Assembly (NCBI RefSeq): GCF_001294625.1
Contig: NZ_CP012677.1
Location: 1,302,001-1,366,000 of the forward strand
From: Arthrobacter alpinus
GTDB taxonomy: Bacteria > Actinomycetota > Actinomycetes > Actinomycetales > Micrococcaceae
DNA length: 64,000 bases
Direction: 5' to 3'
The stretch's first letter is position 1. Every line of letters begins with the position of its first letter. Positions 21,169 through 28,874 of the stretch are shown piece by piece. The position numbers were made by a program, and so were the translations under genes. The notes under the pieces are model-generated. The model ran no database searches. It had not been told where the DNA came from and saw only the letters and a list, made by a program, of their open reading frames with translations.

Positions 21169-21603
21169 ATGACGCGATTGAGTGTTCTGGACCGCTTCCG
21201 GCCTGTGGGCGCGCCCGGCGCGGCAGGCCGTTCGGGCGTGCCAGCAGTTGACGGCCAGGGGCCCGCCGCGGAGTTGGCCCCGGTGTTCGCCGCGCTCGCC
21301 TCCGAAGTCCAGGCGTGTGAAGAACTTGTTGAGGCCGCACGCCGACAAGTCGGGCATGACTTGGCCGCGGCCCGGACGCAGGCTGCGGCGATCGTGTCCC
21401 AGGCCAGGCTCGACGCCGGCGCCGCACGGGCAGTCGCCGCCGCCGGTGTTGAGCAGGAATCCGGGGATAGGGAGGCCCTGATGATGGAGCACGCTCGTCG
21501 CGAGGCCGCCGCCGTGGAAGAGTCCGGGATGGCCCGTATTCCAGACGTCGTGGGAAGGGTCATTGACGCCCTGCTGGCCCCGGACATAGCCGGCACGAAA
21601 TGA
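21169..21603 (+). CDS. V/A-type ATPase peripheral-stalk subunit G/H-like protein
   Basis: ATG 21169 follows an excellent GGAGGT and gives 144 residues; the in-frame start at 21034 is rejected. The body (about residues 40-125) is alanine- and charge-rich, predicted to form a long coiled coil (LAAARTQAAAIVSQARLDAG), with a short conserved-looking end IPDVVGRVIDALLAP. This fits the small peripheral-stalk subunit that pairs with subunit E. It is the first gene of the operon and overlaps the next by four bases. Sequence identity to known G subunits cannot be judged by eye; position supports the call. Confidence 0.65.
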   Translation: MTRLSVLDRFRPVGAPGAAGRSGVPAVDGQGPAAELAPVFAALASEVQACEELVEAARRQVGHDLAAARTQAAAIVSQARLDAGAARAVAAAGVEQESGDREALMMEHARREAAAVEESGMARIPDVVGRVIDALLAPDIAGTK

Positions 21604-22526
21604 AATCGGACTGGGTTGGCGCATGTGTGCGGGCCCGGTCCATGGCACAGCGCCGGGTAGGTGCCGGCAGCATCCGGGCGCTTTCCGCCGCACCCACCCT
21701 GGCTGCAGCCCTGGCTGCCCTGCAGCCGACTTACTATGGCGAACGGCTCCACGGCGTATCAAGCCTTGCCGCTTCCGAACGCGCCATCTCGGAGACTGTC
21801 CTGTGGCAGCTGCGGGTACTGGCCGGTTGGCTTCCTGCCTCGGGCACCGCACTTGCGAGGGCAGCTGCGGGCACTTTCGAGCTCGAGAACATTGTGGCGC
21901 TGGCCCACCAGTTCGACGGTGGCCCCACGGCCCCCGAGCCTTACCGTCTCGGTGCCCTGACGACGGCCTGGCACCGAGTGGGAGAGGCCAGTTCCCGTGA
22001 GGACCTCGGCGTGAGGCTGCGCACCTCGCCCTGGGGCGAGGTCGGAAAAGGCGGCCCGGGCCAGCTCAGGGACACGCTGAGCGTGGCCTGGGCGCGTCGG
22101 CTGGCTACCGTGGCGCCCCCGGCACGGCCGTGGTTTGGTGCCGTGTGCGTTCTCACCGCGGCCCGCAGCTTGACGGTCGACGGCGACCTTCCGGCTCCGC
22201 AGCTCCTGCACCTCTTACGCCCGGTACTTGGCCGTTCGTGGGAAAGCGCCGGGAACATCGCCGACTTCCGGGCAGTGCTGCCGCCATCGTTGCAAAAGGT
22301 GGTGGGCGACATTGCCGTACCCCAGGAACTGTGGCGCGCGGAGGTGCGTGCGCACACCAGCGTGGAGAAGGATGGATTCCGGTTGCTCCGCGGTTCAATG
22401 CCCGGCCCCGAGGTTGTGTTGGGGGCCATCGCGGTGCTGTCGATGGATGCGTGGCGTGTGCGTGCTGCCTTGGCCGCCTCAGCCACCGGTGCGGGGTCGA
22501 GCGAGGTGCTCGATGAAGCGCCGTGA
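21600..22526 (+). CDS. V/A-type ATPase subunit C (central-shaft cap, d-like)
   Basis: This 308-residue, mostly helical protein has repeated helix-rich modules with Arg-rich starts (VRARSMAQRRVGAG) and FELENIVALAHQFDG, a pattern seen in V-ATPase C/d subunits that sit between the rotor shaft and the membrane ring. Usual length is about 320-350. It is coupled to the G-like gene by ATGA and overlaps subunit I by 14 bases. The sequence is divergent, so the role is inferred from motif pattern and operon position. Confidence 0.65.
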   Translation: MKSDWVGACVRARSMAQRRVGAGSIRALSAAPTLAAALAALQPTYYGERLHGVSSLAASERAISETVLWQLRVLAGWLPASGTALARAAAGTFELENIVALAHQFDGGPTAPEPYRLGALTTAWHRVGEASSREDLGVRLRTSPWGEVGKGGPGQLRDTLSVAWARRLATVAPPARPWFGAVCVLTAARSLTVDGDLPAPQLLHLLRPVLGRSWESAGNIADFRAVLPPSLQKVVGDIAVPQELWRAEVRAHTSVEKDGFRLLRGSMPGPEVVLGAIAVLSMDAWRVRAALAASATGAGSSEVLDEAP

Positions 22527-23826
22527 TTCGCTGGCCCCCGCCCGAATGCAACGGGTTGCACTGGTGGTGCCTGGCGACGCGCTGAAAAGCATGCTCGTCG
22601 CCATCGCCAACAGCGCACTCGTGGAACTGGAACTGCCGTATGAACCTGGCGATAGCGACGAAGAAGTGGAGAAGGCCGCTGCGGCCGCTGTCGTCTCCGG
22701 GCCCACCGCGGCATTAGTGGGCTGGGTGCCGCAGCGCCGGATTGCCGCGCTCACGGAGGCGCTCGCCCCGCTGGGCGCCGCCGTCGTTCCGCTACAGCGG
22801 CCGCGGTGGATCCAGGCCCCGACCCTCCTGGGTGCCAGCGGGAGGCCTGGCATCTCCCGAACCCTGGTGGACACCTACGGGACCGTGCCGTACGCAGACC
22901 TTGACCCCTCACGACTGGCGGCCATGGCTTACGTCCTGATGTTCGGCATGATGTTCGGCGACGTCGGGCACGGCGCCATGCTGCTGGCCTGCGGCTTGAT
23001 CCTGCGCAGCGGCCGGATCAGGAAACTCGCCGCGCTGAAAAGGGCGTGGCTGTTTGTCAGTGCCGCCGGCCTAGCCGCCATGGTGTTTGGGGCGCTGTAC
23101 GGAGAGGCTTTCGGCCCCACCGGACTGGTACCCGTGTTGTGGCTGGAACCCCTGGCCAATCCGGTGCCGCTGCTGCTGGCAGGCCTGGGGGTTGGCGCGT
23201 TTCTGCTGGCGGGCGCCTACGCCGTCGGCACCATCAATCGCGTGCGTGAGGGCGGGTGGGGCCTGGCGCTGTACGCCCGCTCCGGCGCGGCCGGGTCGCT
23301 GTTGTTCCTGGCAGTGGGGCTACTTGTCTGGGGTCTGGCCGCAGGCATCGGGATCTTGAACGCCGCCGCCGTCATCCTCGCCATGGTGGCCCTCATCTTC
23401 ATTTTCATCGGCCTGTTCGTTGAGGCCGGGGGTGGGGGTACCGGTGTCGTTCAGGCGTTCATTGAACTTGTGGACACCGTCATCCGGCTCGGGTCCAACA
23501 TTGTCTCCTTCGCCCGCCTCGCCGCCTTCGGGCTGACCCATGCGGCGCTGCTGATGGTGGTCTGGAACGGAACGACGGCGCTCTGGGGACCGGGATGGCG
23601 CGCAGGAGCGGCCATTCTGCTGTTCCTGGTGGGCAATATTGTGACCTTTGCGCTGGAGGCCCTGGTGGCAGGAATCCAGGCCCTGCGCCTGGAATACTAC
23701 GAACTGTTCTCACGCGTTTTCCAAACCGAGGGCCGCCCCTTCAAGCCGTGGTCCCCGGACGTGGGCACCACCGAGGTCCCGACAGGCTCGACCACTCCAA
23801 CCGCAACCGAAAGGCCCCTACAGTGA
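22513..23826 (+). CDS. V/A-type ATPase membrane subunit I (a subunit), short N-terminus
   Basis: The chosen ATG at 22513 gives 437 residues; the in-frame GTG at 22228 would read through subunit C. The membrane half is typical: [16 protein letters not shown], seven to eight hydrophobic segments, [19 protein letters not shown] with the Arg expected to face the rotor carboxylate, and the family C-terminal [11 protein letters not shown]...GRPFKPW. The soluble N-terminal arm is only about 120 residues, against roughly 300 in Thermus or archaeal subunits of about 620-660. This would shorten the connection to the peripheral stalks. It carries ions past the ring. Confidence 0.85.
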
Positions 23827-28252: not shown

Positions 28253-28262
28253 GCAGCCGGAC

Positions 28263-28874
28263 ATGACCGCCATGGGGCGGGCAGCCAAGGTTCAGCTTGA
28301 GCGCCGCCTGGAGAGCGCCCACCACGGCGCCCGCCTGCTGGATCGAAAACAGCACCTCCTGGCAGACCAGCTGGAGCGGCTCCAACGCCGCTCGGAGACG
28401 ACCCAGGCGGAGTGGGAGGCCTTGGCCACGGAGGCTGCTCGGTGGCTGCGCCGCTCGGCGGCCCTGGATGGCAGCGCACGGATAGAGGCGGCGGCTCCAC
28501 AGGACACCGCCACAGTGGTGGTGCGGTGGGGCAATGCCATGGGGGTGAGCTATCCAGAAGATCCGCAGTGCGAGCTCCCCGAGCTGCCCGCGGCAGGGGG
28601 TAGCTCGGCCTTGTCCTATGCGGCCTCCGTCCATCAAGGTGCGCTGCTCGCCGGGGTACGTCATGCCTCGGTCCAACGGGCGCAGCTGCTGTTGGCCGCC
28701 GAGCTTGCAGCAACCCGGACCCGGCAGCGGGCTGTTGAGAACCGGTGGATTCCACGACTTGAGAATGAACTCCTGGCCATCCGGCGCCAGCTCGACGCGC
28801 AGGAACTGGAAGAGAGCCTGCGCCTGCGCTGGGCCGCCGACCGGACCACGGCTGACCGCAATGCGGGAGACTAA
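28263..28874 (+). CDS. V/A-type ATPase subunit D (central rotor shaft)
   Basis: This 203-residue protein is nearly all helical, with antiparallel coiled-coil ends. The N-terminal helix reads AAKVQLERRLESAHHGARLL and DRKQHLLADQLERLQRR; the C-terminal helix reads AVENRWIPRLENELLAIRRQLD and ends in charged residues. A Val-rich central segment with an Asp/Glu-Leu-Pro turn matches the family. It ends the operon. The usual KxxLLxxKRD pattern is seen as ARLLDRKQHLL. Confidence 0.88.
   Translation: MTAMGRAAKVQLERRLESAHHGARLLDRKQHLLADQLERLQRRSETTQAEWEALATEAARWLRRSAALDGSARIEAAAPQDTATVVVRWGNAMGVSYPEDPQCELPELPAAGGSSALSYAASVHQGALLAGVRHASVQRAQLLLAAELAATRTRQRAVENRWIPRLENELLAIRRQLDAQELEESLRLRWAADRTTADRNAGD

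Follow-up and report, generated by a model that had tools for sequence, protein, structure and literature searches.

The V/A-ATPase of Thermus thermophilus is a described system of this kind, and its operon has the subunit order G-I-K-E-C-F-A-B-D. According to PMC7367684, its subunit I has a proximal and a distal lobe with a coiled coil between them, and one EG peripheral stalk is docked on each lobe. The present analysis concerns a V/A-type ATPase operon in a stretch of 64,000 nucleotides from Arthrobacter alpinus (contig NZ_CP012677.1, positions 1,302,001 to 1,366,000), referred to below as the window, in which nine overlapping genes at positions 21,169-28,874 follow the order G-C-I-K-F-E-A-B-D; this order departs from the Thermus order, in agreement with an original prediction made on this DNA. 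Based on the sequence comparisons described below, we consider it reasonably probable (about 0.55) that this complete V/A-type ATPase, with a reduced stator and found in dormancy-type islands, acts as a hypoxia or energy-stress proton pump. The nine genes are the following.

21169..21603, + strand: subunit G (peripheral stalk), 144 amino acids (aa), ATG start; family profile matches T. thermophilus G (E 7.9e-9)
21600..22526, + strand: subunit C (rotor funnel, d-type), 308 aa; assigned by fold
22513..23826, + strand: subunit I (stator, ion half-channels), compact, 437 aa; PF01496, 3.5e-20
23823..24260, + strand: subunit K (c-ring), 145 aa, GTG start; PF00137, 3.4e-15
24257..24547, + strand: subunit F (central shaft), 96 aa with an N-terminal extension; assigned by family profile
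24544..25065, + strand: subunit E (peripheral stalk), 173 aa; PF01991 below cut-off, family profile matches V-type E (2.5e-8)
25053..26801, + strand: subunit A (catalytic), 582 aa, with P-loop GGFGTGKT and GERGNE
26798..28252, + strand: subunit B (regulatory), 484 aa, SLSRLM arginine present, P-loop absent
28263..28874, + strand: subunit D (central shaft), 203 aa; PF01813, 1.3e-27

All nine subunit types could be assigned and the catalytic and ion-path motifs are intact, which bears out the earlier claim that the operon is complete. Subunit A carries the extra, non-F-type barrel-sandwich domain (PF16886, 1e-15) together with PF00006 and scores 643.6 bits against NF003220 (cut-off 470), while subunit B scores 589.5 bits against NF003235 (cut-off 349). 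Subunit G alone gave no match in the Pfam and NCBIfam search, and no sequence relative of subunit C was found among PDB chains. Subunit K consists of a variable N-terminal hydrophobic stretch and then a single conserved hairpin with the glutamate. Across the loci gathered, in which some genomes are represented twice, the subunit A P-loop G-x-FG-x-GKT was present in 108 of 109 loci (GGFGTGKT in 107; not found in L138), GERGNE in 109 of 109, the channel arginine motif of subunit I (SFARLAAFG in the window) in 106 of 108, and the subunit K glutamate motif GLAEG[IV]AIYG in 107 of 108. The SLSRLM or TLSRLM motif of subunit B, whose arginine is presumably the arginine finger, was present in 92 of 104 loci and not found in the remainder.

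The shortened I and F subunits are new beyond the original prediction. Subunit F stays below the cut-off of PF01990, of which it covers profile positions 1-57 of 91, and its family profile aligns to positions 2-66 of 111 of V-type F (1.1e-4), the C-terminal part of the family being absent. Subunit I of the window's clade has about 440 residues versus about 650, and the coiled-coil arm and the distal lobe are absent. The structure model of the window's subunit I has a single alpha/beta lobe, which is not the two-lobe Thermus architecture, and the fold comparison with the 649-residue Thermus chain aligned 380 residues with a root-mean-square deviation of 7.5. Lengths of 416-529 aa were found in all 80 named loci (defined below), a range biased by the choice of these loci for their resemblance to the compact subunit. 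Among loci of other families, reached through subunit D, a whole subunit I was compact (427-482 aa) in 8 of 9, that of L091 being long (662 aa); in L101 it is incomplete. Because the lobe on which the distal stalk usually docks is absent, the stator may be held by one peripheral stalk, or a second stalk may be anchored in a new way. The compact subunit is a natural case in which to ask whether a V/A motor can do without a second peripheral stalk.

The distribution of the operon was surveyed with the subunit D family in overlapping samples of the window's family, order, class and phylum, the window's own genome included. Matches were obtained in 38 of 395 genomes of the family (37 over the cut-off), 27 of the 38 belonging to one genus, in the Arthrobacter koreensis/citreus group, in 7 of 297 genomes of the order, in 16 of 394 of the class, where they are patchy, and in 93 of 396 of the phylum, mostly of a different, higher-scoring type. 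A scan with the subunit I alignment gave 565 related loci, and the best 80 of the 565, taken as named loci, come from Arthrobacter, Paenarthrobacter, Pseudarthrobacter, Cryobacterium, Demequina, Kribbella, Rhodococcus, Nocardia, Nocardioides, Streptosporangiaceae, Streptomyces, Dactylosporangium, Acidimicrobiaceae metagenome-assembled genomes (MAGs), two Dormiibacterota MAGs and others. All nine genes stand in the order G-C-I-K-F-E-A-B-D at 86 of 115 loci (window included) from many genera, and at 60 of the best 80 named loci. In the subunit B tree of 83 rows, the 73 rows of the window's clade group with 100/100 support, and the branch between them and the Coriobacteriia-type rows, of which 9 of 27 were kept, measures 1.07, other phyla not being included; left out were subunits B shorter than 400 aa, L078, L093, L099, L100, L129, L157 and most loci outside the named set. 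Within the clade families mostly stay together, although Cellulomonadaceae, Nocardioides and Rhodococcus each appear in two places; the window sits with its own genus, and a fork with weak support separates the koreensis group from the Arthrobacter of the window.

These results show that the window operon belongs to an actinobacterial clade whose gene order and compact build are its own. The idea that such operons are rare in actinobacteria is contradicted by a lineage that is patchy but widespread, and rarity was rejected as a mark of novelty for the same reason, the same operon being found across many actinobacterial genera. For subunit B, the clustering with widespread actinobacterial copies is the very result that had been named as counting against the original prediction; subunit A was not in the tree. 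A recent acquisition from a distant group was likewise rejected, as in the tree the window groups with members of its genus within the actinobacterial clade.

The expected coexistence with an F-type synthase was confirmed, an F-type gamma gene being found in the window's genome and in all 23 tested relatives matching subunit D, two of which hold only a subunit D fragment. Because the F-type enzyme is present in the same genomes, the V/A enzyme is an addition and not a replacement. The fragments, L079 and L104 (genomes G190 and G1010), are likely remains of a lost operon, and their region keeps pyruvate phosphate dikinase (PPDK), alcohol dehydrogenase (ADH) and universal stress protein (Usp) genes in L079 or CBS proteins in L104. 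Two F-type gamma genes each were seen in G1056 and G1010, which may hold two F-type synthases.

Outside one Arthrobacter group, the operon is recurrently placed in dormancy- or hypoxia-type islands. With the koreensis group left aside and a minimum locus length of 17 kb, 36 of 52 named loci had a dormancy-type neighbour versus 2 of 20 random 20-kb regions, a control value obtained with one query per cluster and with all cluster members alike; with the ADH and pyruvate dehydrogenase genes removed, the counts were 32 of 52 versus 1 of 20. For Usp genes, we used the best-scoring of 343 domain matches, which gave 119 genes after tandem domains were merged. Among these matches listed, 24 of 119 lie within 30 kb of subunit D where 1.47 were expected, in 9 of 23 relatives' genomes, and none lies near the 25 F-type gamma genes; several genomes come from the same genus, so that these counts are not independent. 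In the window's genome, 4 of 14 Usp genes are within 30 kb of subunit D, and the 110 kb on either side of the F-type gamma gene hold none. PPDK was seen by eye within 30 kb of subunit D in 8 of 24 genomes (G000, G192, G096, G247, G190, G394, G1056, G197). The hypoxia or energy-stress setting proposed for the window thus gains comparative support from the neighbour and Usp counts. Large subunits of NiFe-hydrogenase are near the operon at 6 of the 52 named loci, that of L137 having sulfhydrogenase alpha, below cut-off, as its closest NCBIfam match, and NiFe-hydrogenase cluster genes were seen near the operon in L134, L137, L140, L160, L168, L180, L181 and L182. In the window, the neighbours are as follows.

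20020..21003, - strand: pfkB-type kinase, divergent, directly upstream of the operon; PF00294, 2.1e-48
29750..32710, - strand: GH65 family enzyme; PF03632, 3.4e-116, N-terminal HAD-like stretch read by eye
32735..33205, - strand: PNPOx-like flavoprotein; PF12900, cluster members in 9 loci, window included
34492..36969, + strand: PPDK; PF01326, DosR-like box at 34,434
37079..37996, + strand: tandem Usp; PF00582, 3.1e-46, DosR-like box at 36,992
41303..41860, - strand: Usp; PF00582
42572..43633, - strand: Zn ADH; PF08240/PF00107, DosR-like box at 43,734 common to the kinase
43824..45620, + strand: GAF-HisKA_3-HATPase histidine kinase; one GAF stretch in Pfam

The layout of the histidine kinase resembles that of DosS/DosT. 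The window also holds a phosphoketolase, a set resembling succinate dehydrogenase/fumarate reductase, a cytochrome b-like gene and pyruvate dehydrogenase-type genes. The statement that all neighbouring genes point to hypoxia or energy stress stands for the pfkB kinase, the GH65-HAD enzyme, the PNPOx-like protein, PPDK, Usp, ADH, the histidine kinase, phosphoketolase and the respiratory genes, but "all" is too strong, as a GNAT acetyltransferase, an S51 peptidase, a VIT1 transporter and apparently broken genes do not fit. Two stretches are presumably such remains: 29,190-29,760, between the operon and the GH65 gene, reads like a broken short-chain dehydrogenase gene, and 33,360-34,250 like a broken LigD-type polymerase/primase gene. 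According to PMC10034137, the DosR regulon of mycobacteria includes universal stress proteins and a nitroreductase.

DosR-like boxes were scored symmetrically over 10 points against the consensus GGGNC-N4-GNCCC and counted at a score of at least 9. Of the operon promoters outside the koreensis group, 23 of 79 reach 9, while 4 of 142 promoters do so in random regions taken from eight genomes (p 2e-8); the same score is reached in 20 of 658 stretches before inner genes of the operon and at 19 of 36 labelled dormancy gene promoters. In the window, ten box matches (nine sites, two overlapping) are intergenic, which is above a rough expectation from the gene map (p 0.003), and these include the boxes upstream of PPDK and of the tandem Usp as well as the one that lies between ADH and the histidine kinase. 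A palindrome, GGAACT-AATTCC, found upstream of the koreensis-group operons was dropped, as by eye it seems to lie inside the coding sequence of the preceding gene.

In the reading we prefer, that of a hypoxia or energy-stress pump, the ATPase would be produced when oxygen is low or energy is scarce, and its main activity would be proton pumping driven by ATP. The ATP could come from fermentation, phosphoketolase, phosphorolysis and PPDK-based glycolysis, and spending it would keep the membrane energised once respiration stops. The mycobacterial F-type ATP synthase resists hydrolysis, and the actinobacterial F-type enzyme would do this energising job poorly if it is resistant as well. We put forward more tentatively, as a possible but doubtful extension, that the Actinomycetota have a distinct class of miniaturised V/A-type rotary ATPase to themselves, with a single or re-anchored stalk, a trimmed subunit F and DosR-type dormancy wiring in many genera, whose ATP hydrolysis would sustain the membrane potential when hypoxic cells have stopped growing and their F-type enzyme would be unable to run in reverse. 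The way in which strictly respiring actinobacteria maintain a membrane potential when oxygen is lacking matters both medically and ecologically; V/A-type enzymes have in our judgement seldom been considered for this task, and a conserved operon beside dormancy-type genes is a direct, testable candidate for energising dormant cells.

Several results weigh against the pump. Its sequence fits a pump and a synthase alike. The dormancy-type labels were assigned after the clusters had been seen, the clusters being built from the same loci, and 16 of the 52 named loci have no dormancy-type neighbour, 6 of the 16 having hydrogenase-cluster genes instead. No Usp gene was found near subunit D in 14 of 23 genomes among the matches listed, and 2 of the 9 Usp-positive genomes (G190, G1010) hold only subunit D fragments. 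In the koreensis group, none of the 7 loci that span 17 kb or more has a dormancy-type neighbour, and 3 of 3 genomes have no Usp near subunit D among the matches listed and no PPDK anywhere in the genome. At the 16 koreensis/citreus loci (L064, L072-L076, L080, L081, L116-L118, L120-L123, L132), the recurrent neighbours are a SelR protein, an EncFtn-like ferritin and a 163-aa protein without a Pfam match (each at 13-16 of 16 loci), and the role of the ATPase may therefore vary. As for the boxes, other neighbour promoters reach 9 in 91 of 418 cases, over which the operon promoters have no significant excess (p 0.10), their excess being strong only over random regions and inner genes; it is thus the islands in their entirety that carry the boxes. 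The promoter of the window operon has only 8-point sites, and a box was rejected as proof for this operon, since 8 of 10 is chance level; no same-genus relative examined reached 9 at its operon promoter, and the whole window holds 20 box sites versus 14-22 in shuffles.

The same sequence could serve an auxiliary ATP synthase, complementing the F-type enzyme by making ATP from a low proton motive force in microaerobic or anaerobic respiration. The motifs of a reversible machine are kept, the window holds succinate dehydrogenase/fumarate reductase-like and cytochrome b-like respiratory genes, and the Thermus V/A enzyme synthesises ATP, as stated in PMC7367684. We nevertheless regard this role as unlikely, given that an F-type synthase was already present in 23 of 23 operon-bearing genomes tested and that the island holds fermentative and ATP-saving enzymes. 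The oxygen-related character of the surroundings, with DosR-like boxes and hydrogenase neighbours, also speaks against a pump that exports H+ or Na+ under pH or salt stress, for which the association with dormancy genes would merely reflect islands of general stress genes. The window's subunit K has Gly after Glu at a place where Ser/Thr is usual in c-subunits that bind Na+, which may speak further against such a pump. A P-type cation ATPase (about 900 aa) occurs near the operon in 12 loci (including L105, L125, L174 and L178), the carriers include Cryobacterium, Demequina and Salinibacterium, which are known from cold or saline habitats, and the koreensis group has a different setting; with these points counted in its favour, the pH or salt pump still appears quite improbable to us.

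It is far less plausible that the operon is a laterally spread passenger of little present function that is being lost. The patchy distribution and the two genomes with only a subunit D fragment (L079, L104) would fit a passenger, but nine subunits that are all intact, catalytic motifs that hardly vary throughout a deep clade, and a subunit B tree that mostly keeps families together, would hardly be expected of one.

In comparison with known systems, the window shares all nine subunit types with the Thermus thermophilus V/A-ATPase, as well as the folds of subunit C and of the membrane part of subunit I, and the window's subunit A scores 474 bits against the Thermus A chain, its best match (512 bits) being the archaeal-type A of 3m4y. 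It differs from Thermus in gene order, in a subunit I of 437 versus about 650 aa without the coiled coil and distal lobe, and in a subunit F without the C-terminal part. The Enterococcus hirae Na+ V-ATPase (Ntp) provides the top PDB sequence match for the window's subunit I, in the C-terminal half, whereas its residues ~48-292 (~245) have no counterpart in the window; its ion ligands look different from those of the window. The V/A operons of other Actinomycetota classes, in small and probably Coriobacteriia-like genomes, share the phylum and the V/A subunits, but their subunit B is only 48-52% identical and a long, fully supported branch lies between. Ten such comparison loci, read with profiles of the window's family, have subunit I open reading frames (ORFs) of 655-744 aa, 7 in a Thermus-like order and 3 D-first. 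The seven, L205-L211, read (G/E-like)-I-K-E-F-A-B-D, with C not detected, F missed in L208 and subunit I ORFs of 661-729 aa stop to stop. Of two comparison loci from the window's own taxonomic order, L215 is D-first with a subunit I ORF of 674 aa, and L216 has A-B-D only. The D-first type (D-I-K-...-A, then B in L212-L215) with a long subunit I comprises L091 and L212-L215, its hosts being another Actinomycetota class and two genomes of the window's own class. The accessible parts of the literature outside subscription journals, including PMC12451618, PMC4154653, PMC10656485, PMC10034137 and PMC7367684, do not describe the G-C-I-K-F-E-A-B-D order, the short subunit I or a V/A-ATPase in a DosR regulon. 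For another actinobacterium, Melissospora conviva, gain of an A/V-type ATP synthase pathway has been reported (PMC12451618), the accessible part of the report giving its presence only and no operon order, compact subunit I or dormancy context. V-type ATP synthase annotations also exist in Arthrobacter, Cellulomonas, Cryobacterium and others, and the subunit B proteins so annotated belong to the window's lineage.

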